DNA of 64,000 nucleotides, from assembly GCF_003855095.1 (NCBI RefSeq), contig NZ_CP033972.1:4588001-4652000 (forward strand). The letters are read 5' to 3'. Position 1 is the stretch's first letter. Each line of letters starts with the position of its first letter. The position numbers and the translations under genes are program-made. Shown here one piece after another: positions 22,271-62,788 of this stretch. The notes beneath the pieces were generated by a model. The model had not been told where the DNA came from, did no database searches, and worked only from the letters and a program-made list of their open reading frames with translations. The stretch comes from Gordonia insulae. GTDB lineage: Bacteria; Actinomycetota; Actinomycetes; Mycobacteriales; Mycobacteriaceae.

Positions 22271-22299
22271 TTGACCTAAAGCCTTTCGGTTACTACTCT
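22271..22299 (+). promoter_or_regulatory. promoter of ALDH 2 with degenerate CTAA-N5-TTAG site
   Basis: -35 TTGACC (22271-22276), 17-bp spacer, -10 TACTCT (22294-22299). CTAAAGCCTTTCG at 22276-22288 keeps the left half-site but has a degenerate right half. Confidence 0.5.
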
Positions 22300-22368
22300 A
22301 CGGTTTGTGACCCCGTTCACAGGGCCGTGTACGGCCCTCTCACCACGAGCTCGAGGAGTGCGACTGCA

Positions 22369-23865
22369 ATGACGACGACGGAACAGGCCGCGGACCCGAT
22401 CGCCGCGATCGGCGACAGGGATCAGGTCTTCATCGGGGGGCGGTGGGTCGACTCCACCGGCTCGGACTGGATCGAGGTCGTGGATTCCTGGTCAGAGAAG
22501 ACTGCCGCACGTGTCCGGGCCGCCACCGCCGATGACATGACGCGTGCGGTGGACGCGGCCCGCGCGTCGTTCGACGCCGGTGTGTGGGCGAACAAGCCGA
22601 TCGCCGAGCGCGCCGACATCATCGACACCATCGCCGACCGCCTCGATGCCCGCGTGGAGGAACTGACCACGCTCGGTGTCGTCGAGGTCGGTGTCCCGCT
22701 TCCGGTCAGTGCGATGACACAGCAGATGACGACCGGCCTCTTCCGTGCGGTGGCCCAGGAGGCGCGAACCGCGACGATAAGTGAGGAGCGGACCCGCGCC
22801 GACGGTGGAGTATCCCGAATCCTCAAGGAGCCCAGCGGTGTCGTGGGTGTCATCATCCCGTGGAACGGCCCGATCGGAACGATCGCGTTCAAGGTGATCC
22901 CGGCGCTCGCGGCGGGATGCTCGGTCGTGTTGAAGACGTCGCCGGAAGCTCCGCTGTCCCCGTCGATCTTCGCCGACGTCGTCGGTGAACTCGTCACCGA
23001 AGGGGCCATCCCGGAAGGTGTTCTGAGCGTTCTGGTCGCCGACCGCGAGGTCTCCGAGTCGCTCGTCACCAACCCGAAGGTCGATCACATCACCTTCACC
23101 GGGAGCACCTCCACCGGACGCCGGATCATGAACCTGGCCAGCGAGCGTGTCGCGAAGGTCTCGCTCGAACTCGGCGGCAAGTCCGCGGCGATCATCCTCG
23201 ACGATGCCGACCTGAACGCCGTGATGCAGGCCCTCCCGATGGGCGGTTGCATGCAGTCGGGGCAGGCGTGCATCGCGCTCACGCGAGTCCTGGTGTCGCG
23301 CAACCGCCACGACGAGGTGGTGGCCGCCTACAAGGCGGCGCTGGGCATGATTCCCATGGGCAACCCATGGGAGCAGACGAACTTCCTCGGCCCGCTGACC
23401 TCGGCACGCCAGCGGGATCGCGTCGAGAGCTACATCGAGACCGCCCGAGCCGAGGGCGCGGAGATCGTGCACGGTGGTGGGCGTGGCGTCGATCAGGGCT
23501 TCTTCGTCGAGCCGACCATCGTCGACAACGTGCGCAATGACATGACGATCGCGCAGGAAGAGGTGTTCGGTCCGGTCATCTCGATCATCACCTACGAGGA
23601 CGAGGACGAAGCGGTGGCGATCGCCAACGACTCGATCTACGGACTCTCGGGCGCGGTGTTCACTGCCGATCCCGAGCGTGGTTTCGCACTCGCGCAACGT
23701 ATTCGGACCGGAACGGTCAACGTGAACACGTCCACGATCGACTTCACGCTGCCGTTCGGCGGGTACAAGCAATCCGGCGTCGGACGTGAAGGTGGGCCGG
23801 AAGGACTCGAGGAGTTCTTCGAGACCAAGACGGTCCACTTCCCGGCACCGCAGCCGGCCCAGTGA
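22369..23865 (+). CDS. aldehyde dehydrogenase
   Basis: A 498-residue NAD-dependent ALDH of the betaine/benzaldehyde-like class. Motifs: SGVVGVIIPWNGPIGTIAFK, the NAD loop FTGSTSTGRRIM, catalytic Glu in SLELGGKSAAI, catalytic Cys in SGQACIALTRVLV, and EEVFGPVISIITYEDEDEAV. The start at 22369 has GAGG about 14 bp upstream. It is a single-gene unit followed by a terminator shared with the convergent TetR gene. It may follow the alcohol/SDR steps of the P450 pathway (inference). Confidence 0.92.
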   Translation: MTTTEQAADPIAAIGDRDQVFIGGRWVDSTGSDWIEVVDSWSEKTAARVRAATADDMTRAVDAARASFDAGVWANKPIAERADIIDTIADRLDARVEELTTLGVVEVGVPLPVSAMTQQMTTGLFRAVAQEARTATISEERTRADGGVSRILKEPSGVVGVIIPWNGPIGTIAFKVIPALAAGCSVVLKTSPEAPLSPSIFADVVGELVTEGAIPEGVLSVLVADREVSESLVTNPKVDHITFTGSTSTGRRIMNLASERVAKVSLELGGKSAAIILDDADLNAVMQALPMGGCMQSGQACIALTRVLVSRNRHDEVVAAYKAALGMIPMGNPWEQTNFLGPLTSARQRDRVESYIETARAEGAEIVHGGGRGVDQGFFVEPTIVDNVRNDMTIAQEEVFGPVISIITYEDEDEAVAIANDSIYGLSGAVFTADPERGFALAQRIRTGTVNVNTSTIDFTLPFGGYKQSGVGREGGPEGLEEFFETKTVHFPAPQPAQ

Positions 23866-23869
23866 CCCG

Positions 23870-23910
23870 GCGAGGCCGTGGCCGAGGCGCTCAGCCGGCC
23901 ACGGCCTCGC
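23870..23910. terminator. bidirectional terminator hairpin
   Basis: Perfect 14-bp arms GCGAGGCCGTGGCC (23870-23883) and GGCCACGGCCTCGC (23897-23910) lie between convergent genes; the right arm is inside the last TetR codons. Confidence 0.65.
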
Positions 23911-24538
23911 TGTCCAATTCGTGATCCCGGATGATCCCGTGCAGGAAGCTGCGCACCATCTCCTCGAACAGTTGCTTCTGCGTCAGCGGGTTGGTGGCGA
24001 GGGCCTCGGTGAGTAGGGGTTGCGAGGTCTTGTCGACGTTCGGGAAGATCGTCGACTTCGTGCTCGGCGGACGCATCGCCTCCATGAGCACGGTCCCGAT
24101 CGACAGTGTTTCCATGCCGTCGAGGATGCGCACGTGCAGGTGTGCGGGGACCCCGGAGTCGAGGAGGAACTGAGCGGTGTCCTCGTAGGTGCCGACGAAG
24201 AGCTCGCGCGGAAGGTGTTGCAGCAGGATCGGAGCGGCATTGCGGTGGCGCAGGATCGACTGGCGGAAGTTGAGTGCCAACGCGACGAAATACTCGGGCC
24301 AGTCGGGACCTGGCCGCCGACGGGGGCGGGCCACGGACGTCCCGGCGATGAAGCGGGCCACCTCGGTGAGGATCTCGTTCTTGTCCGAGAAGTGGTGATA
24401 CAGCGAGGGCGCTCGTACTCCCATGTGCTTGGCCAGCCTCGGCAGACTGAAAGCCTCGAGGCCTTCGGAGTCGATGATCTCGATCGATGCCTCGACCGCC
24501 GCATCGCGACTGATCAGCGGCTTGGATGGTCGCGCCAT
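23891..24538 (-). CDS. TetR-family regulator
   Basis: A 215-residue regulator with helix-turn-helix AFSLPRLAKHMGVRAPSLYH followed by HFSDKNEILTEVARFIAG. The ligand domain includes RNAAPILLQHLPRELFVGTY. The start at 24538 (MARPSKPLISRD) is chosen because the longer frame to 24742 is arginine- and threonine-rich non-family sequence. A CTAG-N5-GTAG site lies 35 bp upstream (24573-24585), a relative of the CTAA-N5-TTAG motif. That makes this protein the best local candidate for reading the motif (inference). Confidence 0.88.
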   Translation of the reverse strand: MARPSKPLISRDAAVEASIEIIDSEGLEAFSLPRLAKHMGVRAPSLYHHFSDKNEILTEVARFIAGTSVARPRRRPGPDWPEYFVALALNFRQSILRHRNAAPILLQHLPRELFVGTYEDTAQFLLDSGVPAHLHVRILDGMETLSIGTVLMEAMRPPSTKSTIFPNVDKTSQPLLTEALATNPLTQKQLFEEMVRSFLHGIIRDHELDSEAVAG

Positions 24539-24572: not shown

Positions 24573-24585
24573 CTAGCAAGAGTAG
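24573..24585. promoter_or_regulatory. possible variant CTAA-N5-TTAG site (TetR promoter)
   Basis: CTAGCAAGAGTAG keeps CTA and TAG ends with 7 bp between. It is 35 bp before the TetR start and is the weakest clear member of the set. Confidence 0.35.
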
Positions 24586-24778: not shown

Positions 24779-24915
24779 GGCTGCAAGGTGGTCGACATCA
24801 CATTTCTCGTCAGGTGTGGCGGTCGAGCATCTCAGTGGAGCCCACTCAAGGTGCAGTCGTCGGCGGCCCAGATCGGCGGATGCCCGGGCAATTCGAGAGC
24901 AAGGAATCCGATCAC

Positions 24916-25785
24916 ATGAAGCTTGAAGGCAAGGTAGCCCTGATCACCGGTGCCGGTTCGGGCCTGGGACGTCAATCGTCCCAACTCTTCTCGTCCGAGG
25001 GCGCGCGGATCGCCGTCGTGGACATCGACGGTGACCGGGCAGAGCAGACCGCGAAGCTCGTCGAGCAGCAGGGTGGCGAGGCCATCGCCATCACGGCCGA
25101 CGTGGCGCAGAAGTCGCAGATCGTCTCCGCTGTGGACGAGACGGTCAAGCACTTCGGCAAGCTCGACATCGCTTGGGCCAACGCGGGAATCGTCTCTCGC
25201 GGAGGTGTTCCCACCGTTGCGGGTGGAGAGTCGGTCCTCTTCGAGGACCTGACCGAGGACGACTGGCAGCACGTGTTGGGGATCAATCTCAGCGGCGTGA
25301 TCTACACCGCGCAGGCCGCTGTGCCGGCACTGAAGGCCAATGGTGGCGGCACGATCCTCGCGACGTCATCGGCGGCGTCGCTCGTCGCGTACCACGACAT
25401 CGCGCTCTACAGCGCGACCAAGGCGGGCGTCAACGGTTTCGTTCGCGGCCTGAGCCTGGACCTCGGCCCATACGGTATCCGCGTCAACGCGCTGGCGCCG
25501 ACTCACGGTATGTCGCCGAACTTCCTGATGCCCGCCGGTTCGCCCGTCGTCGGCCAGTCCTACGAAGAGGTCTCCGGCCCGTGGGATCCGTTCGTCTCGC
25601 CGATCCCGCTCAAGCTCAACCGTCCGCCGTCACTGGTCGACAATGCCAAGGTCGCGCTCTTCCTGGCCTCGGACGACTCCGCATACATCACCGGCGCCAC
25701 CATCGGCTCGACGGATGGCGGAACCCTCTCGCGCGTCGGTATGTGGTTCGCGGAGGATCTCGACCAGAAGAATCCCAACGCCTGA
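24916..25785 (+). CDS. short-chain dehydrogenase/reductase
   Basis: A 289-residue classical SDR. The cofactor motif is ALITGAGSGLGRQSSQLFSS; Asp in VVDIDGDRAEQ suggests NAD. WANAGIVSRGG is followed by the catalytic Ser region (ATSSAASLVAYHDIALYS) and YSATKAG. It has a longer loop than minimal SDRs (VAGGESVLFEDLTEDDWQHV). First gene of an operon with ferredoxin (5 bp gap) and P450, so it probably oxidises the alcohol made by the P450 (inference). The start at 24916 begins the fold; the upstream frame is non-coding leader. Confidence 0.9.
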   Translation: MKLEGKVALITGAGSGLGRQSSQLFSSEGARIAVVDIDGDRAEQTAKLVEQQGGEAIAITADVAQKSQIVSAVDETVKHFGKLDIAWANAGIVSRGGVPTVAGGESVLFEDLTEDDWQHVLGINLSGVIYTAQAAVPALKANGGGTILATSSAASLVAYHDIALYSATKAGVNGFVRGLSLDLGPYGIRVNALAPTHGMSPNFLMPAGSPVVGQSYEEVSGPWDPFVSPIPLKLNRPPSLVDNAKVALFLASDDSAYITGATIGSTDGGTLSRVGMWFAEDLDQKNPNA

Positions 25786-25790
25786 ACGCC

Positions 25791-26027
25791 ATGTCATCCA
25801 CGCAGGAGAGCATTCTGACCGTGGATCGGGTCGCGTGCGCCGGGCACGGATTGTGTTACGGCGCCGCACCGGACCTGATCGACTGCGACGACCAGGGCGA
25901 CCCGATAGTGCCCGATCATGCGCTCGGATCAGACGAGGTCGGACCGGCCAATGAGGCCGTGTCCCTCTGCCCCGAGCGTGCCCTGGCGCTCCAGCCCATC
26001 ACCACAGCCCCGGAGGATCAGTCATGA
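25791..26027 (+). CDS. 3Fe-4S-type P450 ferredoxin
   Basis: A 78-residue small ferredoxin. The cluster motif is CAGHGLC followed by a distant CP (SLCPERAL), the CxxXxxC...CP pattern of actinobacterial P450 ferredoxins, with His at the variable position. Three cysteines imply a [3Fe-4S] cluster or one with an unusual ligand. It overlaps the P450 start by 4 bp (ATGA), so it is almost certainly that enzyme's electron donor. The reductase may be the fused ferredoxin-NADP reductase at 53926 or one elsewhere. Confidence 0.88.
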   Translation: MSSTQESILTVDRVACAGHGLCYGAAPDLIDCDDQGDPIVPDHALGSDEVGPANEAVSLCPERALALQPITTAPEDQS

Positions 26028-27253
26028 CAACAGCCGAACGTTCCCGTGAGGACGTCACCGTCGACTTCGACGTCTACGACCAGAACATCGCCGCACCGGT
26101 GGACCGCTTCCAGGAGATGGCCGCCGAACTCGCGTCCAAAGGGCCGGTGGTCTACTCGACCGCGTACGGCGGTCACTGGATCGTCACCCGCTACCAGGAG
26201 ATCCATGAGGTGCTCCGGGATGCCGAGACCTTCTCCAGTTACCCCAACAACCTGGTGACGAACGAGGCGTTCGGGAAGTTCATCCCGATCGAACTCGATC
26301 CCCCGGAGCACACCGGGTACCGCAAGGCGCTGCAACCGCTGTTCGGGCCCGCGCGCATGAAGAAGCTGTCCGAGAGCATCCGCACGGTGGTCAACGACCT
26401 GCTCGACGAGTTCGCGAGCAAGGGTGAGGCCGAGTACATCTCGGCGTTCGCGCACGAGCTGCCCGCCCGGATCTTCCTCGCCCTCATGGATTGGCCCATC
26501 GAGGACGCGCCGCTGTTCACCGACGCCACCGATGTGGTGCTGTTCGGCAAGCCCGGTGGTACCGAGGAAGAGTCGCTGGAGGCCCGTGCCATCGCCGGTA
26601 TGCAGATGCTCGGCTACTTCCAGAAGATGGTCGACGAACGGCGGGCCAACCCCGGCGACGACGTGACATCGCAACTGATCCACACCGAGGTCGAGCTCGC
26701 CGACGGGCTGCGTCTGCTGACCGACGAAGAGCTGAACCGCATGTTCTTCCTGCTCCTCATCGCCGGCCTGCACACCGTGCAGGGTTCGTTGGCGTGGGCG
26801 ATCGTGCACCTGGTCAACAACCCCGAACAGCGGCAGCAGATCATCGACGACCCGGCGATGATCCCGAGCGCGGTCGAGGAGATCCTCCGGATCGAGGCCG
26901 CGGTGGTCCCGGGTCGTCGCGCCACGCGTGACGTCGAGTTGGGCGGCATGTCAGTCAAGGAAGGCGAACAGCTGATCCTGCTGCTGTGTTCGGCCAATCG
27001 TGACGACGGCGAGTTCGACGAGCCGGACGAGCTCGACGTCACCCGCCGCCCGAATCGCCACCTCGCCTTCGGCGGCGGCGCGCACCGATGCCTGGGCTCG
27101 CACCTCGCGCGGATCGAGCTGACCATCGCCCTGGAGGAGATCCACCGGCGGATTCCCGACTACGACCTCGTCGAATCCGACCCGCCCGTCTTCCATGCGA
27201 GTCAGGTCCGGGGCTGCGTGAAGATGCCCATCCGGTTCACTCCGGAGTCCTGA
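26024..27253 (+). CDS. cytochrome P450
   Basis: A 409-residue soluble bacterial P450. The heme loop is FGGGAHRCLGSHLA with the Cys ligand, the K-helix ExxR is in EEILRIEAAVVPGRRATRDV, and the C-terminal part is RFTPES. The I-helix reads LLIAGLHTVQGSLAWAI: the Thr is kept, but the acidic residue usual before it (AGxDT or AGxET) is His. It presumably hydroxylates a hydrophobic substrate using the adjacent ferredoxin; the SDR would oxidise the product. The family number and substrate cannot be told from sequence alone. Confidence 0.93.
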   Translation: MTTAERSREDVTVDFDVYDQNIAAPVDRFQEMAAELASKGPVVYSTAYGGHWIVTRYQEIHEVLRDAETFSSYPNNLVTNEAFGKFIPIELDPPEHTGYRKALQPLFGPARMKKLSESIRTVVNDLLDEFASKGEAEYISAFAHELPARIFLALMDWPIEDAPLFTDATDVVLFGKPGGTEEESLEARAIAGMQMLGYFQKMVDERRANPGDDVTSQLIHTEVELADGLRLLTDEELNRMFFLLLIAGLHTVQGSLAWAIVHLVNNPEQRQQIIDDPAMIPSAVEEILRIEAAVVPGRRATRDVELGGMSVKEGEQLILLLCSANRDDGEFDEPDELDVTRRPNRHLAFGGGAHRCLGSHLARIELTIALEEIHRRIPDYDLVESDPPVFHASQVRGCVKMPIRFTPES

Positions 27254-27309: not shown

Positions 27310-27337
27310 TGCCTCTTAAACCTTATAGCTGTAGATT
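27309..27337 (+). promoter_or_regulatory. Rieske oxygenase 1 promoter with CTAA-N5-TTAG site
   Basis: -35 TTGCCT (27309-27314), 17-bp spacer, -10 TAGATT (27332-27337). The motif copy CTTATAGCTGTAG (27322-27334) overlaps the -10. Confidence 0.6.
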
Positions 27338-28649: not shown

Positions 28650-28662
28650 CTAATTGCGTTAG
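28650..28662. promoter_or_regulatory. CTAA-N5-TTAG site, acyl-CoA ligase promoter
   Basis: CTAATTGCGTTAG has perfect outer CTAA/TTAG arms and is followed by ATG as in the other copies. It is 65 bp before the ligase start at 28727; TAGATG may be the -10. Confidence 0.6.
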
Positions 28663-28726: not shown

Positions 28727-30247
28727 ATGACCGCAACGATCGGAGCCGCCCTGGACTGGTGGGCCCGCACCAAGGGAGACACCGACGCGGTGGTGTTCTC
28801 CGAATCCTCGCTCACCTACCGGGATCTGAGGGACTGGAGCAGCCGGGTGGCTCGACTCCTCGTCGAGGAACGCGGTGTCGCCGAGGGGGATCGGGTCGGT
28901 GTGCTGGGTCCCAACTCGCTCGAGTGGCCGGTCGCGTCGCTCGGTGTGCTCAAGTCCGGGGCTGTACTCGTCCCGTTGAACAGCCGGTACAAGCCGGCCG
29001 AGCTGCGGAAGATCGCCGACGACGCGGGGATCTCGGTGGTGATCGCGGCTCCGGGATTCGAACAGCTCGCCGAGGACACCGCTGCCATCGGGGAGGAGTT
29101 CACGGTCATCTCCTACGCGGAGCTCGACGGACTCCGATCGGGTGGGGCAGACGACTTCCGCGTCGATCGCGAGCCCGATGAACCGACCACGGTTCTGTTC
29201 ACGAGTGGATCGACGGGGCTGTCGAAGGGGGTGATCCTGACCAACCGCACGCTGCTGTCGATCGTGCTGGAGAACACCCTCACCGAGGAGGGTTTCCGGC
29301 CGGGCACGACGACGCTGCTCGTACTCCCGCTGGCGTTCACCCCGGGCCTCGTCTACGGACTTCTGATCACCACCGTTCTCGGGGGAACGCTGATCGTCGA
29401 ACCCGAATTGAATCCGTCCAACGCCGTGACGTTGCTCGAGAAGCATGCGGTCAAGGCGATCTTCGGGGTGCCGCTCATCTTCGAGGCGATCTCGCGCGCA
29501 CCGGAATTCGTCGACGCGGACCTCAGCTCGCTCAAGACGGCGATCGTCGGCGGCGCCGCCGTGCCCGGCCAGCTTCTCAAGCGATGGGCCGACAAAGGCG
29601 TACTGCTGCGCCAGATCTACGGCATGACCGAAGCGGGTGGCGTGGCCACCGCGACGATCCGTGACGAGGCGCTGGAGTTCCCGGATCGTTGCGGCACGGG
29701 CTCGATCTTCACCGAGGTGAAGGTGTTCACCCCGGAGGGAGAGCCGGCCGCGCCGGGCGAGCAGGGGGAGCTGGTCGTCCGCGGACCGGGTGTGACACCC
29801 GGTTACTGGAACGACCCGGAATCGACGTCACAGGCGATACGCGACGGGTGGTTGCACAGTGGTGACCTCGGGGTCAGCGACCCCGAGGGCCGGGTGCAAT
29901 TCGTCGATCGACTGAAGGATCTGATCATCTCGGGCGGGATCAACATCTCCCCGGTCGAACTGGAGATCGCCATCGGCGCGATCGACGGCGTCGCCGAAGT
30001 GTCGGTGATCGCTGCGCACGACGACCGATTCGGCGAGACCCCCGCCGCCATCGTCACCGTCTCGAAGGATCTCGACGCCGACACGATCGTCGCCCACTGC
30101 GAGAAGGTCCTCGCCGACTTCAAGGTCCCGCGATATGTGGTGATCCGCCAGGATCCGCTCCCGCGTCTGCCCTCCGGCAAGATCGCCAAGACGATGATCC
30201 GCGACGAATACAAGGACGTCGACACCCGATTCAGCAAGGTGCGCTGA
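28727..30247 (+). CDS. acyl-CoA ligase (AMP-forming)
   Basis: A 506-residue ANL enzyme: P-loop FTSGSTGLSKGVILTN, YGMTEAGGVATA, DGWLHSGDLGVSD, hinge DRLKDLIISGGINISPVELE, and the catalytic Lys in LPSGKIAKTMIRDEY. It is related to the ligase at 57832, including a matching C-terminus (SKVR versus PKVR). It probably activates a pathway acid with CoA. An AAGGAAG ribosome site precedes the start. A terminator and a convergent-like gap separate it from the downstream TetR gene. Confidence 0.92.
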   Translation: MTATIGAALDWWARTKGDTDAVVFSESSLTYRDLRDWSSRVARLLVEERGVAEGDRVGVLGPNSLEWPVASLGVLKSGAVLVPLNSRYKPAELRKIADDAGISVVIAAPGFEQLAEDTAAIGEEFTVISYAELDGLRSGGADDFRVDREPDEPTTVLFTSGSTGLSKGVILTNRTLLSIVLENTLTEEGFRPGTTTLLVLPLAFTPGLVYGLLITTVLGGTLIVEPELNPSNAVTLLEKHAVKAIFGVPLIFEAISRAPEFVDADLSSLKTAIVGGAAVPGQLLKRWADKGVLLRQIYGMTEAGGVATATIRDEALEFPDRCGTGSIFTEVKVFTPEGEPAAPGEQGELVVRGPGVTPGYWNDPESTSQAIRDGWLHSGDLGVSDPEGRVQFVDRLKDLIISGGINISPVELEIAIGAIDGVAEVSVIAAHDDRFGETPAAIVTVSKDLDADTIVAHCEKVLADFKVPRYVVIRQDPLPRLPSGKIAKTMIRDEYKDVDTRFSKVR

Positions 30248-30302: not shown

Positions 30303-30347
30303 TACCATCTGTTACGCCGAACCTGCTGGTCGCTACAACGGACGGAA

Positions 30348-30379
30348 TGCGTTTCTTGTATCGTGACCGATGAAACGCA
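30348..30379. promoter_or_regulatory. inverted repeat before TetR gene
   Basis: 8-bp arms TGCGTTTC (30348-30355) and GAAACGCA (30372-30379) surround a 16-bp centre, ending just before the AGGAGG ribosome site of the TetR gene at 30391. It could be an operator or a leader hairpin hiding the ribosome site. Confidence 0.45.
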
Positions 30380-30390
30380 GGAGGTGAACG

Positions 30391-31924: not shown

Positions 31925-31995
31925 GTCGGTTCCTTTCTCGCCGGGCCTCTTCTGGGCACGGGGGCATCCGAGTGTGACACCACTCACAAGCAGTA

Positions 31996-32025
31996 AAACT
32001 AACACCAGTAGATTGATGTTGGCAA
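31996..32025 (-). promoter_or_regulatory. mycofactocin-type SDR promoter with CTAA-N5-TTAG site
   Basis: On the minus strand: -35 TTGCCA (32020-32025), 18-bp spacer, -10 TAGTTT (31996-32001). The motif copy reads CTAACACCAGTAG on the plus strand (31999-32011). Confidence 0.6.
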
Positions 32026-32099
32026 CACCCGCGCCGAGGCACAGGTCTGAGCCGGCCAAGGGGACGCCGCAGGCCGCTGAACTGGGTCAACTGTTCAGA

Positions 32100-45105: not shown

Positions 45106-45109
45106 TCCG

Positions 45110-46530: not shown

Positions 46531-46543
46531 GAAAGTGTGCACG

Positions 46544-49544: not shown

Positions 49545-49547
49545 CCG

Positions 49548-53926: not shown

Positions 53927-55560
53927 TGGCCTACGTGGTCACGCAGAACTGTTGCAACGATGCGACGTGCGTCGCCGTGTGCCCGGTCGACTGCATCCAC
54001 CCGACGCCCGCCGAGCGCGAGTACAAGCGCACCGAGATGCTGTACATCGATCCGGACACCTGTATCGATTGCGGAGCATGCTCTGACGTGTGCCCGGTGG
54101 ACGCCATCGTCCCCGGCGACGAGATCGCACCCGACATCGATTTCTACCGAGAGCTGAACGCCGAGTATTTTCGGCATCACCCGCGCGAGACACCTCTGGG
54201 TGCGCATGTCCAGCCACTTCCGCTGACGGTCGCGACCTCCGGCGTCGCCGACCCGCCTCCGCTGCGCGTCGCGATCGTGGGGTCCGGACCATCGGCGTTC
54301 TACGCGGCCGAGGAGTTGCTGGCCCGGCGTGACATCGCCGCCGAGATCACGATGTTCGAGAAGCTCCCCGTCGCAGGCGGTCTCGTGCGCTTCGGCGTGG
54401 CACCGGATCATTGGCACACCAAGACCGTCGACCGGGTGTTCGACCGCACCGCGCGGCGAGAAGGTTTCACCTTCCACCTCGGCGTCGAGGTGGGACGCGA
54501 CGTCACCGTCGACGAACTGATGACCCACCACCATGCGGTGATACACGCATCGGGAGCGGCGGGCGACCGGCGTCTCGGCGTCCCCGGCGAGAATCTCTCC
54601 GGCAGTCACGCCGCGCGGGAGATGGTGGCGTGGTACAACGGTCACCCCGACCACGCCGACCACACCTTCGACCTGACAGGGCATCGCGCCGTCGTCGTCG
54701 GCAACGGTAACGTGGCATTGGACGTCGCCCGGATTCTCGTCTCGGACCCCGAATCCCTGCGCAGCACCGACATCGCCGATCACGCACTCTCCGCACTCGT
54801 CGACAACCGGATCGAGGAAGTGGTGGTGCTCGGGCGACGCGGACCCGAGCACGCCGCCTGCACCACTCCGGAACTCCTCGCTCTCGGGTCTCTGCCGGGG
54901 ATCGACGTGCTCGTCGACGGTCCCCTGCACGTGGGCATGGACGCGCCGATGAAGATGAGGATCCTCGCCGACTACGCCGGACGGACGCCCACCCCGGGCA
55001 ATCGGCGTATCGTTCTCCGATTCGGTTGCAAGCCTGAGGAAGTCGTCGGCGTGGAGCATGTCGAGTCGCTGATCGTCGCGGACACCGACACCGGCGTGAC
55101 CGAGAAGATCGTGTGCGGGCTGGTGCTCCGAGCGATCGGTTACCGGGGCACGCCCATCGCAGGGCTCCCGTTCGACGACGAAGCGTTCACGGTGGGCAAT
55201 GTCGCGGGTCGCGTCGTCGTGCCGGAGACGAGCGAGCCGGTCGTGGGGCAGTACGTCGCGGGCTGGATCAAACGAGGAGCGACCGGAGTGATCGGCACCA
55301 ACCGCTACTGTGCCGCCGAGACTGTCGAGTCCCTTCTCGACGATCACCGTGCGGGCCGGCTCGCTGCACCGACCGCGTCGTCGGCAGATCTGACGGCGCT
55401 CGTGCACGCGCGACGACCCGATGCGCTCGGTGGTGGCGATTGGCGCGCGATCGACCGCCACGAGCGCGAGCAGGGCCGGGCCGCCGGGCGCCCGCGGGTG
55501 AAGATCGTCGACGCCACCGCGGCAGTCGATGTCGCGATCGCATCCAGAGCATCGCGATGA
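53926..55560 (+). CDS. ferredoxin-ferredoxin/NADP reductase fusion (FprB-like)
   Basis: A 544-residue fusion. Residues 1-70 are a bacterial 7Fe/8Fe-type ferredoxin (NCCNDATCVAVCPVDCIHP and CIDCGACSDVCPVDAI). The rest is an adrenodoxin-reductase-type flavoprotein with FAD motif VAIVGSGPSAFYAAEELLA and NADP motif AVVVGNGNVALDVARIL. Mycobacterial FprB has the same order. It is sandwiched between molybdoenzymes 2 and 3 with overlapping codons, so it should link them to NADP(H), in either direction. It could also serve the P450 or Rieske enzymes. Confidence 0.92.
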   Translation: MAYVVTQNCCNDATCVAVCPVDCIHPTPAEREYKRTEMLYIDPDTCIDCGACSDVCPVDAIVPGDEIAPDIDFYRELNAEYFRHHPRETPLGAHVQPLPLTVATSGVADPPPLRVAIVGSGPSAFYAAEELLARRDIAAEITMFEKLPVAGGLVRFGVAPDHWHTKTVDRVFDRTARREGFTFHLGVEVGRDVTVDELMTHHHAVIHASGAAGDRRLGVPGENLSGSHAAREMVAWYNGHPDHADHTFDLTGHRAVVVGNGNVALDVARILVSDPESLRSTDIADHALSALVDNRIEEVVVLGRRGPEHAACTTPELLALGSLPGIDVLVDGPLHVGMDAPMKMRILADYAGRTPTPGNRRIVLRFGCKPEEVVGVEHVESLIVADTDTGVTEKIVCGLVLRAIGYRGTPIAGLPFDDEAFTVGNVAGRVVVPETSEPVVGQYVAGWIKRGATGVIGTNRYCAAETVESLLDDHRAGRLAAPTASSADLTALVHARRPDALGGGDWRAIDRHEREQGRAAGRPRVKIVDATAAVDVAIASRASR

Positions 55561-57692
55561 CGCGCCACGTCCACACCTTCTGCCGCATCTGTGAGCCGGG
55601 ATGCGGTTTGCTCGCGGAGGTCGACGACGGCGACGACGGCGACGAGCAGATCGTCCGGCTGCAACCCGACCGGGAACACCCGGTGCATCGGGGCTTCTCC
55701 TGCCACAAAGGTGTGCACTACCTGCAGGTCCATCGCGACCCGGACCGGCTGGACCGGCCGCTGAAGCGGACCAACCCGCGCAGCGAGGAACGCGGAGTGT
55801 TCGAACCGGTCGAGTGGGACGACGCAGCCCGGGACATCGCAACACGACTCGGGGAACTCCGTAGCCGCCACGGCCGCAATGCCCTCGCCGTCTATCAGGG
55901 AAACCCGTCGGCGTTCAACGGCGCGTACTACGCCAACGCCGGGCGGATCGCCCGGGGATTCGACACCCGGATGCGCTTCAGCGCCGGTACCCAGGACACG
56001 TCCGCCAAATACGCGGCGAGCGAGGCGATCTACGGGGCGTCCATGGCGCACCCGATCCCGGATCTGCTGCACACCGACTACTTCCTGTGTCTCGGCAGCA
56101 ATCCGCAGGTCTCGCACATGACGCTGATCCACATCTCGGATCCGATGGCGAAGATCCGTGAGATCACCCGGCGCGGCGGGACGGTGTTGTTCGTCAATCC
56201 GCGACGAATCGAGTCGTCGTCACCAGAGACCGGCGACGTCCTGCTGGTCCGGCCGGACACCGACTTCTACTTTCTCGCAGCGGTCCTGCACGAGATCGTC
56301 TTCCGCATCGGATACGACCGGGACGCGGTGGAATCGCACGCCAGACATGTCGACGACGTGCTCGACTTCGTCCGTCGCTATCCCGTCGAGAGGGTGGCCG
56401 AGGTGGTGGGCGTGCCGGCTGAGGAGATCCGACGGGTCGCGGATGACTTCTGCTCGGCCCCGAGTGCGAGCATCTACATGGCGACCGGTGTGAACCAGGG
56501 TCGGCAGGGCGCTCTGGCCTACTGGATGCTCACCATGGTGAGTCTGTTCTCGGGCAATCTCGGCCGGCGGGGCGGCAACATCTACTCACGGGGTGTCGCG
56601 GACACCGTGCAGCACTCCACGCGTAAGCGGGAGGACCCGTTCTTCGACGGCCCCCTCGGCGAGATGCGCACCGTGAGCGGCGATCTGCCTGCAGCCCGGC
56701 TGGCGGAGTTCATCGAGGACCCGGCCGACCCGATCCGCGCGCTGATCGTGGTCTCGGGAAACCCGCTGCTGTCGGTCGGTGGAGACGGACGACTGCTTCG
56801 AGCACTGCGGTCACTGGAGCTGATCGTGACGATCGATCTGTACCGGACGGTCACCGGGGAACTCGCGGACTATGTTCTGCCGGCTACGGATTGGCTCGAA
56901 CGGGAGGATGTCAACGTCCTCAACACCATGGGTGTCGCGATGGAACCGTACGTCCAGTACACGCCCGCGGTCGTACCCTCGAAAGGGGAGCGACGCGACG
57001 ACTGGTGGATCCTGTCCCGCATCCAGCAGGAGATGGGTGTCGCAACGCTGCTCGACGATCCAGACCCTAATCCGTTCGCTGCGATCGACGCGATGATGGC
57101 GGGCTCCGGCCTGACGATCGAGGCGCTGTCGACCATGCCGTGCCAGACCGCGGTGTTGCCCCCGGCGGTACCGACGGATGTCTTCGACATCGCGGTTCAG
57201 CACGAGGACGGACTGATCGACTGCTGCCCGAACATTTTTCGTCGCTTCTTCCCGGTCGCCGAGCGCATCCTCGACGAGCTGTCGGCAGAACCGCCGGACC
57301 AGCTGAAGCTGATCACTCGTCGTACCAACTACATGGTCAACAGCTGGATGCACAACCTGCCCATCCTCAAGCACGGGGTACACCAGGACAATCCGCTGTG
57401 GATGAATCCGTGCGACGCGCACCGGCGTGGACTGGTCGAGGGCGATGACGTCGAGGTTCGGAACTCTCACGGACACGTCACCGCTGTTCTGGCGTACGAC
57501 GACGGACTGCGTGACGGCGTGGTGGCGATGACGCACGGGTGGGGTCAGCGAACGGCTCACGGTCTCGACGTGGCCCGTCGACACCCCGGCGTGAACGTCA
57601 ACCGCCTGGCGCCGACGGGAGCGGACGGCTACGACCCTCTCAGCAACCAGTCCCAGCTCACCGGGATCAACGTCGACGTCGTGAGGTGTTGA
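55557..57692 (+). CDS. molybdopterin (bis-MGD) oxidoreductase 3
   Basis: A 711-residue paralogue. The [4Fe-4S] motif is FCRICEPGCGLL with Cys in GFSCHKGVHYL. The pterin region has FLCLGSNPQVSHMTLIHISD and VLFVNPRRIESSSPETGDVL. Asp147 in TQDTSAKY occupies the Mo-ligand position. The C-terminal domain has RRTNYMVNSWMHNLPILKHG and VVAMTHGWGQRTAHGLDVAR. It starts at 55557, overlapping the reductase stop (ATGA); the longer frame from 55113 is a shadow. Last gene of the operon. Confidence 0.88.
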   Translation: MTRHVHTFCRICEPGCGLLAEVDDGDDGDEQIVRLQPDREHPVHRGFSCHKGVHYLQVHRDPDRLDRPLKRTNPRSEERGVFEPVEWDDAARDIATRLGELRSRHGRNALAVYQGNPSAFNGAYYANAGRIARGFDTRMRFSAGTQDTSAKYAASEAIYGASMAHPIPDLLHTDYFLCLGSNPQVSHMTLIHISDPMAKIREITRRGGTVLFVNPRRIESSSPETGDVLLVRPDTDFYFLAAVLHEIVFRIGYDRDAVESHARHVDDVLDFVRRYPVERVAEVVGVPAEEIRRVADDFCSAPSASIYMATGVNQGRQGALAYWMLTMVSLFSGNLGRRGGNIYSRGVADTVQHSTRKREDPFFDGPLGEMRTVSGDLPAARLAEFIEDPADPIRALIVVSGNPLLSVGGDGRLLRALRSLELIVTIDLYRTVTGELADYVLPATDWLEREDVNVLNTMGVAMEPYVQYTPAVVPSKGERRDDWWILSRIQQEMGVATLLDDPDPNPFAAIDAMMAGSGLTIEALSTMPCQTAVLPPAVPTDVFDIAVQHEDGLIDCCPNIFRRFFPVAERILDELSAEPPDQLKLITRRTNYMVNSWMHNLPILKHGVHQDNPLWMNPCDAHRRGLVEGDDVEVRNSHGHVTAVLAYDDGLRDGVVAMTHGWGQRTAHGLDVARRHPGVNVNRLAPTGADGYDPLSNQSQLTGINVDVVRC

Positions 57693-57706: not shown

Positions 57707-57735
57707 TTGTCATCACAATCGAATGGCTTTAGATT
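57707..57735 (+). promoter_or_regulatory. acyl-CoA ligase promoter with CTAA-N5-TTAG site
   Basis: -35 TTGTCA (57707-57712), 17-bp spacer, -10 TAGATT (57730-57735). CGAATGGCTTTAG (57720-57732) overlaps the -10. Confidence 0.65.
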
Positions 57736-57831: not shown

Positions 57832-59355
57832 ATGAGCGGTACCGTGATCGACGCACTCACCTACTGGGCGAAGATCGTTCCCGACCAGGCGGCCATCGAC
57901 TTCGCCGGTGACGTCGTCACCTATCGTGAGCTCAACACCTGGGCCGACGGCGTTGCGCACGACCTCGATGATCGCGGCGTCACCGCCGGAGACCGGGTCA
58001 GCTATCTCGGTGTCAACACGCTCGAGTGGTGCGTCGCCGCCATCGGAGCGATGAAGGTCGGGGCGATCTCGGCGCCGTTCAACCAGCGCATGCTGGCCGG
58101 CGAGCTGACCGTGCTCGTCGACGATTGCGAGCCCGCAGTGGTCTACTGCGACGCCGACCTCCGCGACCGCCTCGAGGAGGTTCACGCGGCGCGGGAGACC
58201 TTCGCGATCGCCGAGTTCGAGGCGAACGTCCGATCGTTGCGAGGTGTTGCACATGCGCCGTTCCGCGCCCCCGTCACGGAACAGTCCGACCCCACCGCGA
58301 TCGTGTTCACCAGTGGCACCACCGGCAAACCGAAGGGAGTGGTGTTCACCCATGCCACCATCGCCGGTGAGATGCACGAATGGTCGTTGATGGAACCGAT
58401 CGAGCAGAACGGCCTGCGGCCGCTGCTGGTGCTGCCGCTCTTCACCGCGGCCGGCATCATCTGGGGCATCTCCCGGACCGTGCTCCACGGCGGCACCCTC
58501 CTGCTGCAACCAGGGTTCGACCCTGCGTCCGCGTTGCGGGTGATGACCGACAGCAAGGCCACCACGTTGACCGGGCCGCCCATCCTCTTCGAGCAGATCT
58601 CCCGTGTCCCGGGCTTCGATGACACGGACCTGAGTCACCTGACCACCGCACACGTCGGTGGCGCGCGCGTACCGTCGGCTCTGGTCGGAACCTGGCTCGC
58701 CCGCGGTGTGCAATTGCGACAGATATACGGCCAGACCGAGATCGGCGGATCGGCCACCGCGATGCCCCGCCACGAGGCGGCCCAGCATCCGGACAAATGC
58801 GGATTCGGTGGCATCTTCACGAAGATCCGTGTGGTCGATGCGGACGGGAAGGAGTGCCGACCCGACGAAGTGGGACAGATCCTCCTGCGTGGCCCCGGCA
58901 TGATGCCGGGGTACTGGCGCAACGATGACGCCACCCGGGCCGCCCTCATCGACGGATGGCTACACACCGGCGATCTCGGGAAGCTCGACGAGAACGGCTA
59001 TCTGACGTTCGTCGATCGGCTCAAGGACATGATCATCTCCGGCGGCCTCAACATCTCACCGGCAGAGATCGAGCAGGTCATCAATCGGATGCCGGGCGTC
59101 GAGGAGGTCGCCGTCATCAGCGTTCCCGACGACAAGTTCGGCGAGACGCCCGCTGCGATCGTCAAGAAGGTCACCGGCCTCACCGAGATCGACGTCGTCG
59201 AGTTCTGCAATCGGAATCTCGCCGACTACAAGGTGCCGCGCTATGTCGTCTTCGTCGACTCCGGTCTGCCTCGGATGGCCAGCGGCAAGATCTCGAAGCG
59301 AGAACTCCGCGACACCTATTCGGATGTGCCCCAGACCTACCCGAAGGTCCGCTGA
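57832..59355 (+). CDS. acyl-CoA ligase (AMP-forming)
   Basis: A 507-residue ANL enzyme: FTSGTTGKPKGVVFTHATIA, IYGQTEIGGSATAMPRHEAA, DGWLHTGDLGKLDENGYLT, DRLKDMIISGGLNISPAEIE and catalytic Lys in MASGKISKRELRDTY. It is closest in the window to the ligase at 28727. It starts an operon with an SDR (2 bp gap) and an enoyl-CoA hydratase. A GGGAGG ribosome site precedes the ATG. Confidence 0.92.
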   Translation: MSGTVIDALTYWAKIVPDQAAIDFAGDVVTYRELNTWADGVAHDLDDRGVTAGDRVSYLGVNTLEWCVAAIGAMKVGAISAPFNQRMLAGELTVLVDDCEPAVVYCDADLRDRLEEVHAARETFAIAEFEANVRSLRGVAHAPFRAPVTEQSDPTAIVFTSGTTGKPKGVVFTHATIAGEMHEWSLMEPIEQNGLRPLLVLPLFTAAGIIWGISRTVLHGGTLLLQPGFDPASALRVMTDSKATTLTGPPILFEQISRVPGFDDTDLSHLTTAHVGGARVPSALVGTWLARGVQLRQIYGQTEIGGSATAMPRHEAAQHPDKCGFGGIFTKIRVVDADGKECRPDEVGQILLRGPGMMPGYWRNDDATRAALIDGWLHTGDLGKLDENGYLTFVDRLKDMIISGGLNISPAEIEQVINRMPGVEEVAVISVPDDKFGETPAAIVKKVTGLTEIDVVEFCNRNLADYKVPRYVVFVDSGLPRMASGKISKRELRDTYSDVPQTYPKVR

Positions 59356-59357
59356 TC

Positions 59358-60101
59358 GTGACCGCGCCCCACCGGGTGGCGGTCGTGACCGGCGGCGGTC
59401 GCGGCATCGGCGCCGCGATCTCGAGGCGGTTGGCATCCGACGGATTCGCCGTCGCGGTCAACTACTCGTCGAGTCCATCGGACGCACAGCAGGTGGTCGA
59501 CGGGATCACCGCCGACGGCGGGAGCGCGGTCGCGATCCGCGCGGACGTCTCCGATCCCGGGCAGGCCGCGAACCTGATCGACACGACCACGGCCGAACTC
59601 GGAGCACCGACCGTCCTGGTGAACAACGCCGGGATGAACATCGCGGGTGCGGCCCGTAAGCAGTCACCCGGCGACTGGGACCGGGTGATCGGTGTCAATC
59701 TCAGTGGCGCCTTCTACTGTGCACATGCGGCCTTGTCGTACATGTACGAGAATGGCTGGGGGCGCGTGATTTTCGTCAGCAGTCCCTCCGGTGGGCGTCG
59801 ACCCTCACCGGGGATGAGCGCGTACTCCGCGGCCAAGGCCGGCCTGGTCGGGATGACCCGGTCGATGGCGCTCGAGGTAGCGCGCCGAGGCATCACGGTC
59901 AACACCGTCATGCCCGGATTCGTGGAGACCGACATCATCTCCTCCGGCGGTGCGAACGCTGCGGAAAGCCTTGCGGCGCACTGGCCCCGCATTCCCGCCG
60001 AGTCCATCGCCTCGACCATCTCGTTCCTCGTCAGCGAGGAGGGCGGGCATGTCTCGGGGGAAGAGGTAGGGGTGTGGCTCGGCGGGCCCGTCGGCGTGTG
60101 A
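59358..60101 (+). CDS. short-chain dehydrogenase (3-oxoacyl-ACP reductase-like)
   Basis: A 247-residue FabG-type SDR: VAVVTGGGRGIGAAISRRLA, VNNAGMNIAGAARKQSPGDW, catalytic Ser in FVSSPSGGRRPSPGMS, and YSAAKAGLVGMTRSMALEVA. Arg/Ser residues after the second strand (VNYSSSPSDAQQ) favour NADP. Likely a 3-hydroxyacyl-CoA dehydrogenase step between the hydratase and thiolase. GTG start 2 bp after the ligase stop. Confidence 0.88.
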   Translation: MTAPHRVAVVTGGGRGIGAAISRRLASDGFAVAVNYSSSPSDAQQVVDGITADGGSAVAIRADVSDPGQAANLIDTTTAELGAPTVLVNNAGMNIAGAARKQSPGDWDRVIGVNLSGAFYCAHAALSYMYENGWGRVIFVSSPSGGRRPSPGMSAYSAAKAGLVGMTRSMALEVARRGITVNTVMPGFVETDIISSGGANAAESLAAHWPRIPAESIASTISFLVSEEGGHVSGEEVGVWLGGPVGV

Positions 60102-60153
60102 CGGGCCACGTCGGCGACGCCGATGCTGTGAGATCACGAGGAGAGGGCAGACG

Positions 60154-60963
60154 ATGGCAGAGATGATCGTGACCGAACGGCCACGACCCGGGGTCCTGGT
60201 GATCCGACTGAATCGCGCTGACGCGCTGAACGCGATGAACGTGGAGTTGGTCGACGCTCTACACGCCGTGTTGGCCGAGGTCAGGCACGACTCCGAGACG
60301 CGGGCGATCGTGTTGACCGGCAACGGCAGGGCCTTCTGCGCGGGCATCGACCTGCGTGGCTACGGCACCCCACCCGGGGCCGCCGAGGGTGAGGGGCGGG
60401 CACAGGCGGGTATGCGCGTCCAGCAGCACATCGCCTCGCTTGTCGAGGCGTTCCGGGGTGCCCGGCCGCCGGTCGTCGCGGCGATCAACGGGGCTGCCGC
60501 GGGCGGGGGCATGGCCCTCGCGCTGATGGCCGATGTGCGGATCATGGCCGACACGGCCGCGCTGCACGCGTCGTTCATCAACCGTGGGCAGTCGAGTTGC
60601 GACATCGGCGTCAGTTGGCTGCTTCCGAGGATGATCGGATTCTCCAGGGCCGCAGAGATTCTGCTCACCGGACGTCCCGTCGATGCCGCCGAGTGCGAGC
60701 GTGTCGGGATCGTGTCGTCAGTTGAGTCCGCGGAGTCGCTGCTCGACAAGGCCCTCGACACCGCCGAGAACATCGCCCGCAACAGCCCGTTCGGGGTGTG
60801 GATGACCAAGGAGGTGATGTGGTCCAACCTCGAGGTACCGAGCCTGCGTGCCGCGATCGACCTGGAGAACCGGACACAGATCCTCGCGGCGATGACCAAG
60901 GATCATCGCGAGGCCGTCCACTCGTTCTTGGAGAAGCGGCCTCCCGTTTATCGCAACCACTGA
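60154..60963 (+). CDS. enoyl-CoA hydratase/isomerase
   Basis: A 269-residue crotonase-family protein: LTGNGRAFCAGIDLRGYGTP and PPVVAAINGAAAGGGMALAL form the oxyanion hole, followed by SSCDIGVSWLLPRMIGFSRA and LLTGRPVDAAECERVGIVSS. It should hydrate an enoyl-CoA in the same beta-oxidation cycle as the adjacent ligase and SDR. A GAGGAGAGGG ribosome site precedes the ATG. Confidence 0.9.
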   Translation: MAEMIVTERPRPGVLVIRLNRADALNAMNVELVDALHAVLAEVRHDSETRAIVLTGNGRAFCAGIDLRGYGTPPGAAEGEGRAQAGMRVQQHIASLVEAFRGARPPVVAAINGAAAGGGMALALMADVRIMADTAALHASFINRGQSSCDIGVSWLLPRMIGFSRAAEILLTGRPVDAAECERVGIVSSVESAESLLDKALDTAENIARNSPFGVWMTKEVMWSNLEVPSLRAAIDLENRTQILAAMTKDHREAVHSFLEKRPPVYRNH

Positions 60964-61100: not shown

Positions 61101-61140
61101 CTGACAGCCCGGCGCGTGCGCGATAATCTAAAGCCATTAG
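61101..61140 (+). promoter_or_regulatory. thiolase operon promoter with CTAA-N5-TTAG site
   Basis: -35 CTGACA (61101-61106), 17-bp spacer, -10 TAATCT (61124-61129). CTAAAGCCATTAG (61128-61140) has perfect CTAA/TTAG ends and begins at the -10. Confidence 0.65.
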
Positions 61141-61217
61141 CCTAGGTTTGTGAGGATGATCGTGAAACGCTGTACACCCGCGCACCCGGCCGCTGCGAAC
61201 CTGGAGGCGGCGCGACC

Positions 61218-62714
61218 ATGAGTGGACCCAGCGTGCCCCTCGACCCACGCACGCCGGTCCTCGTCGGCGGAGGTCAGATCAACGACCGGGACGGCGGCCG
61301 TGAGCCCGTGGATCTGATCGCCGACGCGGCGCGCAGTGCTGCCGGGCAGGCGGGCAGCGAGCGGCTGCTCGAACTCGTCGACTCCGTCCGGATCGTCGGC
61401 CTGCTGTCGTGGCGGTACCGCGATCCCGGCGCCCTGGTGGGTGAGCGCATCGGGGCATCACCTCGGCACACCGCATACACCGGCAGTGGCGGCAGCACTC
61501 CACAGGTCCTCGTCAACATGGCTGCCGAGGACATCATCGCGGGTCGTTCCGACGTGGTGTTGATCGGCGGAGCCGAGTCGTGGCGTACGCGAATGAAACT
61601 GCGGGCGCAGGGTGCTCGCCCGGACTGGACGACGCAGGACGAGTCGGTGGCCGCGGCGCCGATCGTCGTCGACGAGGTGCCGATGCGATCGGACACCGAG
61701 ATGCGTGCGGGTCTGGACCGACCCGCCTACGTCTATCCGTTGTTCGAGCAGGCGCTGCGTCTGCGCGCGGGCAGGACCGTCGCCGAGCACCGAGGCGCGA
61801 TCGGAGCCCTGTGGTCGGGTTTCAGCAAGGTTGCCGCGACGAACCCGCACGCCTGGACGCAACGCGAGTACACCGCCGACGAGATCGCCACGCCGTCGGC
61901 GGACAACCGGTGGATCGTCTCGCCGTACACCAAGTTGCTGAACTCGAACAACATGGTCGAGCAGGGTGCCGCGGTGCTCCTGTGCTCGGTCGAGACCGCC
62001 ACGGCACTCGGCATCCCACGCGACAACTGGGTGTTCCCGCAGTCCGGAACCGAGTCACACGACACCTATGACATCGCCGAGCGCGGCGCGCTGGATCGCT
62101 CGCCGGCCATCCGCATCGCCGGCGCCAGGGCCCTCGAACTGGCCGGCATCGGCATCGACGACGTGGCCCATGTCGACGTGTATTCCTGCTTCCCGTCGGC
62201 GGTTCAGGTCGCCGCGCGGGAACTAGGACTGCCGCTCGACGATCCGGGCCGTCCGCTGACTCTCACCGGAGGGCTCACGTTCGCCGGCGGGCCGTGGAAC
62301 AACTACAGCACCCATGCGATCGCGACGATGGCCGGCCGGTTGCGGGAATCGCCGGGCTCCTACGGACTCGTGACCGCGAACAGCGGCTACCTGACCAAAC
62401 ATGCCTTCGGGGTGTATCGGACCGAGCCGCCCGCCGGTGGATTCCGGCGCGAGGACGTGCAGGCTGCGGTCGACCGGGAACCGACCGTACGGGCCGACCC
62501 GACCTACGCGGGGCCGGCGACAACCGAGTCGTGGGCCGTGCTGTACGACCGGTCGGGTGTGCCCGAGCGCGGCTTCGTGGCTGCTCGCGTCGTCGACGGG
62601 GCGCGGACACTGGCTTCCACCGCAGACCCCGAGGCGCTGCAGCGGCTGCTGGTCGCGGAGGAGGCCGGAGCGTCCCTCGTCGTGACGGCGGACGGCGGAT
62701 TCGACTTCGCCTGA
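61218..62714 (+). CDS. thiolase-like acetyl-CoA acetyltransferase family protein
   Basis: A 498-residue thiolase-superfamily protein (TPVLVGGGQINDRDGGREPV at the start; NMAAEDIIAGRSDVVLIGGA in the core; SGGLTFAG-type loop LTGGLTFAGGPWNNYSTHAI). A C-terminal extra domain starts near PTYAGPATTESWAVLYD. The nucleophile loop reads YTGSGGSTPQVLV with no Cys, so classical Claisen thiolysis is unlikely; lyase/aldolase or scaffold roles as in SCP2/Ltp relatives are possible. It is monocistronic, or the first of a set with 62853-64000. Confidence 0.78.
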   Translation: MSGPSVPLDPRTPVLVGGGQINDRDGGREPVDLIADAARSAAGQAGSERLLELVDSVRIVGLLSWRYRDPGALVGERIGASPRHTAYTGSGGSTPQVLVNMAAEDIIAGRSDVVLIGGAESWRTRMKLRAQGARPDWTTQDESVAAAPIVVDEVPMRSDTEMRAGLDRPAYVYPLFEQALRLRAGRTVAEHRGAIGALWSGFSKVAATNPHAWTQREYTADEIATPSADNRWIVSPYTKLLNSNNMVEQGAAVLLCSVETATALGIPRDNWVFPQSGTESHDTYDIAERGALDRSPAIRIAGARALELAGIGIDDVAHVDVYSCFPSAVQVAARELGLPLDDPGRPLTLTGGLTFAGGPWNNYSTHAIATMAGRLRESPGSYGLVTANSGYLTKHAFGVYRTEPPAGGFRREDVQAAVDREPTVRADPTYAGPATTESWAVLYDRSGVPERGFVAARVVDGARTLASTADPEALQRLLVAEEAGASLVVTADGGFDFA

Positions 62715-62758
62715 GCCGGTGCTCAACGGCCGCCGCGTCGACGGCGCGTGGGCGCCCG

Positions 62759-62788
62759 TTGACTCACCAATATCTAAAGGCTTAAGGT
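62759..62788 (+). promoter_or_regulatory. promoter of NTF2/DUF35/thiolase operon with CTAA-N5-TTAG site
   Basis: -35 TTGACT (62759-62764), 18-bp spacer, -10 TAAGGT (62783-62788). CTAAAGGCTTAAG (62774-62786) is a motif copy with an inverted right half. Confidence 0.55.

Follow-up and report, generated by a model that had tools for sequence, protein, structure and literature searches.

A predicted TetR-family repressor and its probable CTAA-N5-TTAG operators in a large catabolic island of Gordonia insulae

Promoters across a 64,000-nucleotide stretch of the Gordonia insulae genome (hereafter the window; bases 4588001-4652000 of the complete sequence of 5,962,176 bases, or 5.96 Mb) carry copies of a 13-bp palindrome, CTAA-N5-TTAG, and the locus raises the question of which protein reads them. 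An earlier note on this DNA listed ten copies, interpreted them as operators of a local regulon under one repressor, and named the TetR-family gene at 23891-24538, here TetR_A, as the best local candidate; the island holds two further TetR genes, TetR_B and TetR_C. We give a probability of about 0.84 to the reading that TetR_A binds these sites as a TetR-family repressor and in this way controls a large catabolic regulon around its own gene. Local catabolic regulons under TetR-type repressors are a known kind of system; this regulon is a new one.

All ten copies were confirmed at their positions. Exact CTAA-N5-TTAG occurs four times in the whole genome, three of these inside the window (P = 5e-6); the fourth, at 5641159, scores 6.2 with the weight matrix described below and was treated as chance. 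With up to one mismatch there are 34 copies genome-wide. Ten of these are packed into 52 kb; seven belong to the window and the other three lie past its right edge. With the span picked after the fact, such a cluster has a probability of about 3e-13, and the three copies outside the window have one of 1.5e-5. All 10 are intergenic and near gene starts, which here and throughout are those of a simple gene caller made for this analysis. Fifteen of the 24 remaining copies were examined, in 13 stretches, where the top matrix score was 6.6. Four of the 34 form two identical pairs 85 bp apart, present also in two other genera, which we take to be 16S rRNA.

The operator extends beyond the 13-bp core into TWAA flanks. 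In a genome-wide search with the long form WAANCTAAN5TTAGNTTW (WAANCTAANNNNNTTAGNTTW), 11 of 11 matches with up to two mismatches fell in one 52-kb stretch reaching 10 kb beyond the window, and ten further matches at three mismatches were all scattered. The weight matrix was trained on 219 sites, left from 230 once the weakest had been removed, from 12 Gordonia relatives and other genera, with the G. insulae genome and that of the near-identical G. tangerina held out; its consensus is TWAAHCTAANNNNNTTAGDTTWA, and its symmetry is imposed because each site was counted on both strands. In a scan of 164 kb of the G. insulae genome the matrix recovered 14 sites with scores of 14.8-34.5, the next match scoring 7.1, and the same 164 kb reversed gave 1 match of at least 14 versus the 14 real ones. 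All 14 sites are intergenic. Ten are in the window (22276, 27322, 28650, 31999, 43185, 43849, 47909, 57720, 61128 and 62774) and four lie beyond it (69610, 72261, 72317 and 74225); the proposal of a local regulon under one regulator is supported, and the regulon continues beyond the window, as far as about 74.3 kb. The best single sites are 74225 and 69610, with both arms and both flanks preserved. The idea of the outer TAAA as a complete second half-site was largely set aside, because C is not preferred at position -5 before TAA (64 of 223), although CTAA itself turns up more often at -6 than elsewhere (64 of 708 half-views). The candidate operators of the window are listed with the fraction of orthologous promoters that carry a site (matrix score of at least 12 within 300 bp upstream).

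22276-22288, before the aldehyde dehydrogenase gene ALDH2 (22369): CTAAAGCCTTTCG; matrix 21.8; ALDH2 promoters 11/11 in Gordonia relatives, 0/20 elsewhere
24573-24585, weak site 35 bp before TetR_A, putative autoregulation: CTAGCAAGAGTAG; matrix 6.7
27322-27334, before Rieske oxygenase 1: CTTATAGCTGTAG; matrix 30.6; 11/11 Gordonia, 28/43 elsewhere
28650-28662, before acyl-CoA ligase FadD1: exact CTAATTGCGTTAG; matrix 22.4; 4/11 Gordonia, 8/31 other
31999-32011, before the mycofactocin-type short-chain dehydrogenase/reductase (SDR) gene, minus strand: CTAACACCAGTAG; matrix 27.9; SDR promoters 2/7 Gordonia, 7/21 elsewhere
43185-43197, before the alpha/beta hydrolase gene 42190-43131, minus strand: CTACTGCACGTAG; matrix 14.8; 4/4 Gordonia
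43849-43861, between TetR_C and Rieske oxygenase 2, missed earlier: CGAAAGGCAATAG; matrix 19.4; Gordonia promoters of Rieske 2 6/6, of TetR_C 2/5
47909-47921, before the operon of FadD2 and three molybdopterin oxidoreductases: exact CTAAAGCTGTTAG; matrix 23.9; FadD2 promoters 4/6 Gordonia
57720-57732, before the FadD3 operon: CGAATGGCTTTAG; matrix 26.0; FadD3 promoters 2/3 Gordonia
61128-61140, before the thiolase-like gene: exact CTAAAGCCATTAG; matrix 23.3; 6/7 Gordonia, 0/7 other
62774-62786, before the small-protein/DUF35/thiolase-like/aldehyde dehydrogenase/CaiB operon: CTAAAGGCTTAAG; matrix 31.0; 9/9 Gordonia, 14/18 other

Nine of the ten copies first taken for operators pass the matrix, and the tenth, 24573, is weak. 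The start of Rieske oxygenase 1 was set at 27408 (its longest open reading frame, ORF, starts at 27264). Site 31999 may possibly also serve the mce operon, 397 bp off, of which it is the nearest site.

The sites recur in front of many of the same genes in the 12 Gordonia relatives and in the TetR_A loci of other actinobacteria. The relatives were selected for TetR_B at 80% identity or more, with regions of 14-80 kb each, and these regions contain 83 sites with up to one mismatch versus 7.1 expected from the remainder of those genomes (sizes rounded). Besides the promoters listed, those of SDR4 carry a site in 3 of 3 Gordonia cases (23/26 outside Gordonia), and those of mce yrbEA (2/9) and FadE (1/5) do so less regularly; none was found in Gordonia promoters of P450 (0/11), DUF35 (0/10), the mce ATPase (0/7) or TetR_B (0/12). 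No matrix match of at least 12 lies inside a mapped gene. Twelve Gordonia and 62 other matches are neither within nor just before one, and perhaps sit before genes that lack a homologue in the island.

The wider set of TetR_A loci comprised the best 80 of 143, from Streptomyces to Mycobacterium, retrieved by the protein words APSLYHHF or M[AP]RPS[KN]PLI. An exact site is present in 24 of them and a site with up to one mismatch in 73. Counted by gap, exact matches number 35 at 5 and none at 0-4, 6, 8 or 9, with 1 at 7, 6 at 10 and 32 at 11; half-sites with the letters of CTAA in other orders gave 0-14 exact matches at a gap of 5. CTAA-N11-TTAG variants without an N5 core at up to one mismatch occur in 7 of the 80 loci (L184, L188, L189, L194, L181, L183 and L154), four of the seven sites being upstream of TetR_A homologues. 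QacR-type repressors bind as overlapping dimers, and the N11 variants would place two dimers 6 bp apart in the same manner, judging from the spacing; these seven sites are the one line of evidence that may point to paired dimers.

TetR_A is 97% identical to its G. tangerina counterpart, and 11 of its 12 best matches are from Gordonia. Among Gordonia genomes, the 13 with TetR_A contain 2-11 long-motif sites and the 24 without it 0-2, where G014 and G018, with TetR_A homologues of 61-63% identity and 0 and 1 sites, were counted as lacking it. Promoters of TetR_A itself carry a matrix site in 4 of 9 Gordonia and 28 of 68 non-Gordonia cases. In 8 of the 13 Gordonia genomes, G. insulae included, they contain a site with up to two mismatches whose first base lies between -36 and -71 (5 at one mismatch). 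An operator in the regulator's own promoter, as in a local autoregulated TetR regulon, thus appears to be present, weakly in the window itself. There are TetR_A loci with sites and with no TetR_B or TetR_C in the 11-21 kb examined (for example L185, L195, L196 and L202), though these genes could lie elsewhere in the genome, and a TetR_A homologue of 45% identity in another family has an exact site, CTAATGCAGTTAG, in its promoter. TetR_A was chosen because sites stand in the promoters of TetR_A and not of TetR_B, because of the loci with sites that are free of TetR_B, and because of the CTAATGCAGTTAG of the distant homologue.

It is improbable that TetR_B (30391) or TetR_C (43231) reads the operator in place of TetR_A. 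TetR_B lies within the island and occurs in the same 13 Gordonia genomes, so that co-occurrence within the genus cannot separate it from TetR_A; its promoters, however, have a site in none of 24 cases (the 12 Gordonia relatives and 12 non-Gordonia cases), which agrees with the original preference for TetR_A. The TetR_B promoters of the 13 genomes have common GTCTC-TTGTA or GTCTC-ATGTA-like stretches instead (30330-30391 in the window), unlike CTAA-N5-TTAG and perhaps TetR_B's own operator. The promoter of TetR_C does carry a site, 43849, which makes TetR_C probably a target; TetR_C was not found at 45% identity or more in the examined regions of 6 of the 12 relatives, although two of these six (G019 and G021) have a TetR_B-like gene of 41-43% elsewhere that could be TetR_C. 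Adjoining site 43849, between TetR_C and Rieske 2, a longer inverted repeat contains AGACATTGAATGTCT (43872-43886), likely an operator of TetR_C itself.

The predicted DNA-reading residues of TetR_A can be set beside those of the tetracycline repressor. TetR_A contains a TetR_N helix-turn-helix domain (39.7 bits, cut-off 24) and a helical ligand-binding domain, as the TetR fold does, and is the only one of the three TetR proteins of the island with tetracycline repressors among its family or PDB matches (for TetR_C, among matches to 1e-8). It scores 85.6 bits, below the cut-off of 265, against NCBIfam NF010319, the tetracycline repressor equivalog, and is 20-23% identical to the repressors of classes B and D; its predicted regulon is catabolic and wide, unlike theirs. 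The tetracycline operator tetO has an outer CTA-N7-TAG frame, and the motif retains the outer CTA..TAG with the inner bases lost. In the tetracycline repressor, as given in excerpts of PMC7102968, Arg28 and Gln38 form hydrogen bonds with the operator bases at +2 and +3, Tyr42 touches +4, and Arg28Ala abolishes tetO binding. TetR_A aligns there without gaps, with Pro33 and Ala43 in place of Arg28 and Gln38 and with Pro44, Ser45, Tyr47 and His49 retained, and because both residues are replaced, the loss of the inner tetO bases in the motif agrees with prediction. Arg3 of the N-terminal arm is invariant in 32 homologues, which were partly selected on that stretch; it may touch the AT-rich flanks, as is reported for SimR. 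The comparison suggests that a tetO-like frame has been reused for catabolism with inner-base contacts lost, and would offer a clean case for specificity studies.

Under the TetR_A reading, a dimer would bind TWAAHCTAA-N5-TTAGDTTWA with its recognition helices on CTA...TAG, as the tetracycline repressor does on tetO. Bound TetR_A would mask the core promoter and keep RNA polymerase from starting there, and would also limit its own gene. Its release by a pathway substrate or intermediate, perhaps a CoA thioester, would turn on the genes for oxygenases, acyl-CoA ligases and beta-oxidation in concert. The simplest reading of the promoter geometry is repression through a block to polymerase. By a loose hexamer rule, applied to both strands with no shuffle control, 9 of the 15 sites have a promoter-like pair, which at 61128 points away from the gene; the earlier placing of nearly all sites between or on -35/-10 boxes is confirmed in part, 6 of the 15 having no recognisable pair. 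Sites 47909 and 57720 overlap TTGCCA-17-TAGATT and TTGTCA-17-TAGATT, respectively, site 22276 falls in the spacer, and at 6 of 15 sites a -10-like hexamer begins at +9/+10 of the site.

Some TetR proteins activate, and this precedent favours a model in which bound TetR_A recruits polymerase and does not repress; we consider it a little less probable again than a role for TetR_B or TetR_C, the argument against it being a weak one, namely that gene-facing promoter-like pairs are overlapped at the spacer or -10 and that six sites have no recognisable pair. It is very unlikely that an alternative sigma factor uses the motif as a promoter element: its right arm does merge with the -10 hexamers (TAGATT- or TAAGAT-like) at six sites, but arms and flanks are kept at 74225 and 69610 (the symmetry of the matrix itself being imposed), one site often stands between divergent genes, the gap is exactly 5, and presence tracks a TetR gene.

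Several further results weigh against the motif or against control by TetR_A through it. Copies in the window with up to two mismatches number 28 versus a mean of 33.2 in dinucleotide shuffles and are therefore no evidence by themselves, and the pattern read backwards, with 18 exact copies in the genome, is commoner than the motif. In the 80 loci a shuffled half-site control, ATCA at gap 6, gave 37 exact matches, and shuffled controls with up to one mismatch average 129 (standard deviation 131, maximum 749) versus 189 for the motif; because these controls are not all low, just the exact matches and the gap comparison are informative there. Seven of the 80 loci have no site with up to one mismatch, including that of G. 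alkanivorans, whose 61% TetR_A homologue has the same recognition helix, and the 20 kb examined of G018, which has a 63% homologue, lack one as well. The constancy of the recognition helix is partly selection, since the loci were found by helix or N-terminal words, and the long pattern read backwards is slightly commoner in TetR_A genomes (2.6 vs 1.5 per genome, P = 0.048). The site in the TetR_A promoter of G. insulae itself is weak (matrix 6.7), 5 of the 13 Gordonia TetR_A promoters are without a site at up to two mismatches, and TetR_A must gain affinity elsewhere, since Arg28Ala abolishes tetO binding in the tetracycline repressor. Although the first two counts would suit an AT-rich palindrome clustered by chance in intergenic DNA, that explanation is hardly credible beside the held-out matrix (14 real matches versus 1 reversed), the confinement of WAANCTAANNNNNTTAGNTTW, the orthologous promoters of other genera and the co-occurrence with TetR_A.

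The named genes of the island are as follows.

22369-23865, plus: ALDH2, aldehyde dehydrogenase (Pfam Aldedh)
23891-24538, minus: TetR_A, predicted repressor, 215 aa, helix-turn-helix SLPRLAKHMGVRAPSLYHHF
24880-27253, plus: SDR1, small 4Fe-4S ferredoxin, cytochrome P450
27408-28589, plus: Rieske oxygenase 1
28727-30247, plus: FadD1, acyl-CoA ligase (ATG also at 28685)
30391-31026, plus: TetR_B, local TetR without motif upstream
31100-31924, minus: mycofactocin-type SDR (NCBIfam TIGR03971 356.8 bits, cut-off 300, scored on ORF 31100-32059)
43231-43821, minus: TetR_C, 40% identical to TetR_B
43906-47794, plus: operon of Rieske 2, enoyl-CoA hydratase, thioesterase and CaiB
48003-57692, plus: FadD2, three molybdopterin oxidoreductases, ferredoxin/NAD(P) oxidoreductase, with the three oxidoreductase genes sharing one predicted operon with the acyl-CoA ligase and the ferredoxin/NAD(P) oxidoreductase
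57832-60963, plus: FadD3, SDR, enoyl-CoA hydratase
61218-62714, plus: thiolase-like protein

At 19.8-77.7 kb, 19 of 26 transcription units have a site within 350 bp of the head, a count in which divergent pairs share sites, one site being frequently placed between divergent genes, and two units depend on the weak 24573. This site is the sole one near the SDR1 unit, inside which the P450 and ferredoxin genes lie. The site-headed units encode aldehyde dehydrogenases, SDRs (one of mycofactocin type), two Rieske oxygenases, three acyl-CoA ligases, hydrolases, three molybdopterin oxidoreductases, enoyl-CoA hydratases, thiolase-like proteins, a DUF35 protein and CaiB-type CoA transferases, together with a major facilitator superfamily (MFS) transporter, an acyl-CoA dehydrogenase, a GNAT-type protein and a ferredoxin reductase. 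The gene classes named before were right, except that the NTF2 label at 62853 finds no support in a Pfam family. No ketosteroid dehydrogenase was noticed among the typed genes of the island, PDB matches of Rieske 1 and the P450 point to no substrate, and the thiolase has no relative among the viral contigs searched. The TetR_A reading ties up to 19 transcription units to one regulator and makes a search for the substrate practicable: whatever compound frees TetR_A from the operator is a candidate substrate or intermediate. A tentative suggestion, on which we would not insist, is that actinobacteria from Streptomyces to Mycobacterium have a previously undescribed pathway for a hydrophobic substrate, polycyclic or branched. 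Its gene sets would be drawn from P450, Rieske oxygenases, acyl-CoA ligases, thiolase-like and DUF35 proteins, mce uptake and molybdopterin oxidoreductases and would be controlled by a single dedicated repressor of tetO-like type, which in some lineages would bind as two overlapping dimers 6 bp apart (CTAA-N11-TTAG).

The system resembles the KstR and KstR2 steroid regulons in its TetR repressor, local lipid-like catabolic cluster and short palindromes near start codons. The KstR motif differs from CTAA-N5-TTAG. The sites, as described by the matrix, do not match the KstR2 operator, AnCAAGnnCTTGnT in the excerpt of PMC3068626, in keeping with the earlier view that this is not KstR2. SRTF1 of Nocardioides/Pimelobacter simplex is, in the available description (PMC7062782), a steroid-released TetR protein with a 22-bp palindrome and a local island; it is divergent to a ketosteroid dehydrogenase, unlike TetR_A, and the likeness is drawn from the description. 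For the rubber regulator LcpR the comparison covered the S. coelicolor operator, TATGTTAAT-N2-AAAATCACA in excerpts of PMC8235351, which the matrix does not match; the excerpts also describe mce uptake and a molybdenum hydroxylase in rubber degradation, which made rubber a substrate to consider. In the available portions of the open-licence literature the motif was matched by one report, on a non-canonical LexA of Bacteroidetes that binds CTAA-N5-TTAG (PMC8565304); that protein is LexA-like and not a TetR protein and acts on SOS genes, and we read the common core as convergence. Papers on steroid, mycobacterial and rubber topics made up most of those found for the pathway, none with this gene set in its title or the opening of its abstract, and the searches met neither this regulon nor its operator or pathway. 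The available running text of Balhana 2015 (PMC4482099), motif tables aside, has no CTAA or TTAG, and the available text of the N. simplex transcriptome (PMC7807495) no CTAA.

Three minor observations concern the relatives. Another palindrome, CGAAT-N3-ATTCG with AT-rich flanks, is found among the long-motif matches of G001, G009, G017, G025, G028 and G034, genomes with and without TetR_A. A second TetR_A paralogue, 34-37% identical and with the recognition helix APSLYNHF, is present in G021, G029, G034, G025 and G007, and its promoter in G021 carries CTATCGCCATTAG. In G021:C1, at about 1.168-1.174 Mb and far from the TetR_B locus, a TetR_B-like gene of 41% identity and a long-motif site lie about 5 kb apart, a pair that is perhaps a split-off piece of the regulon.

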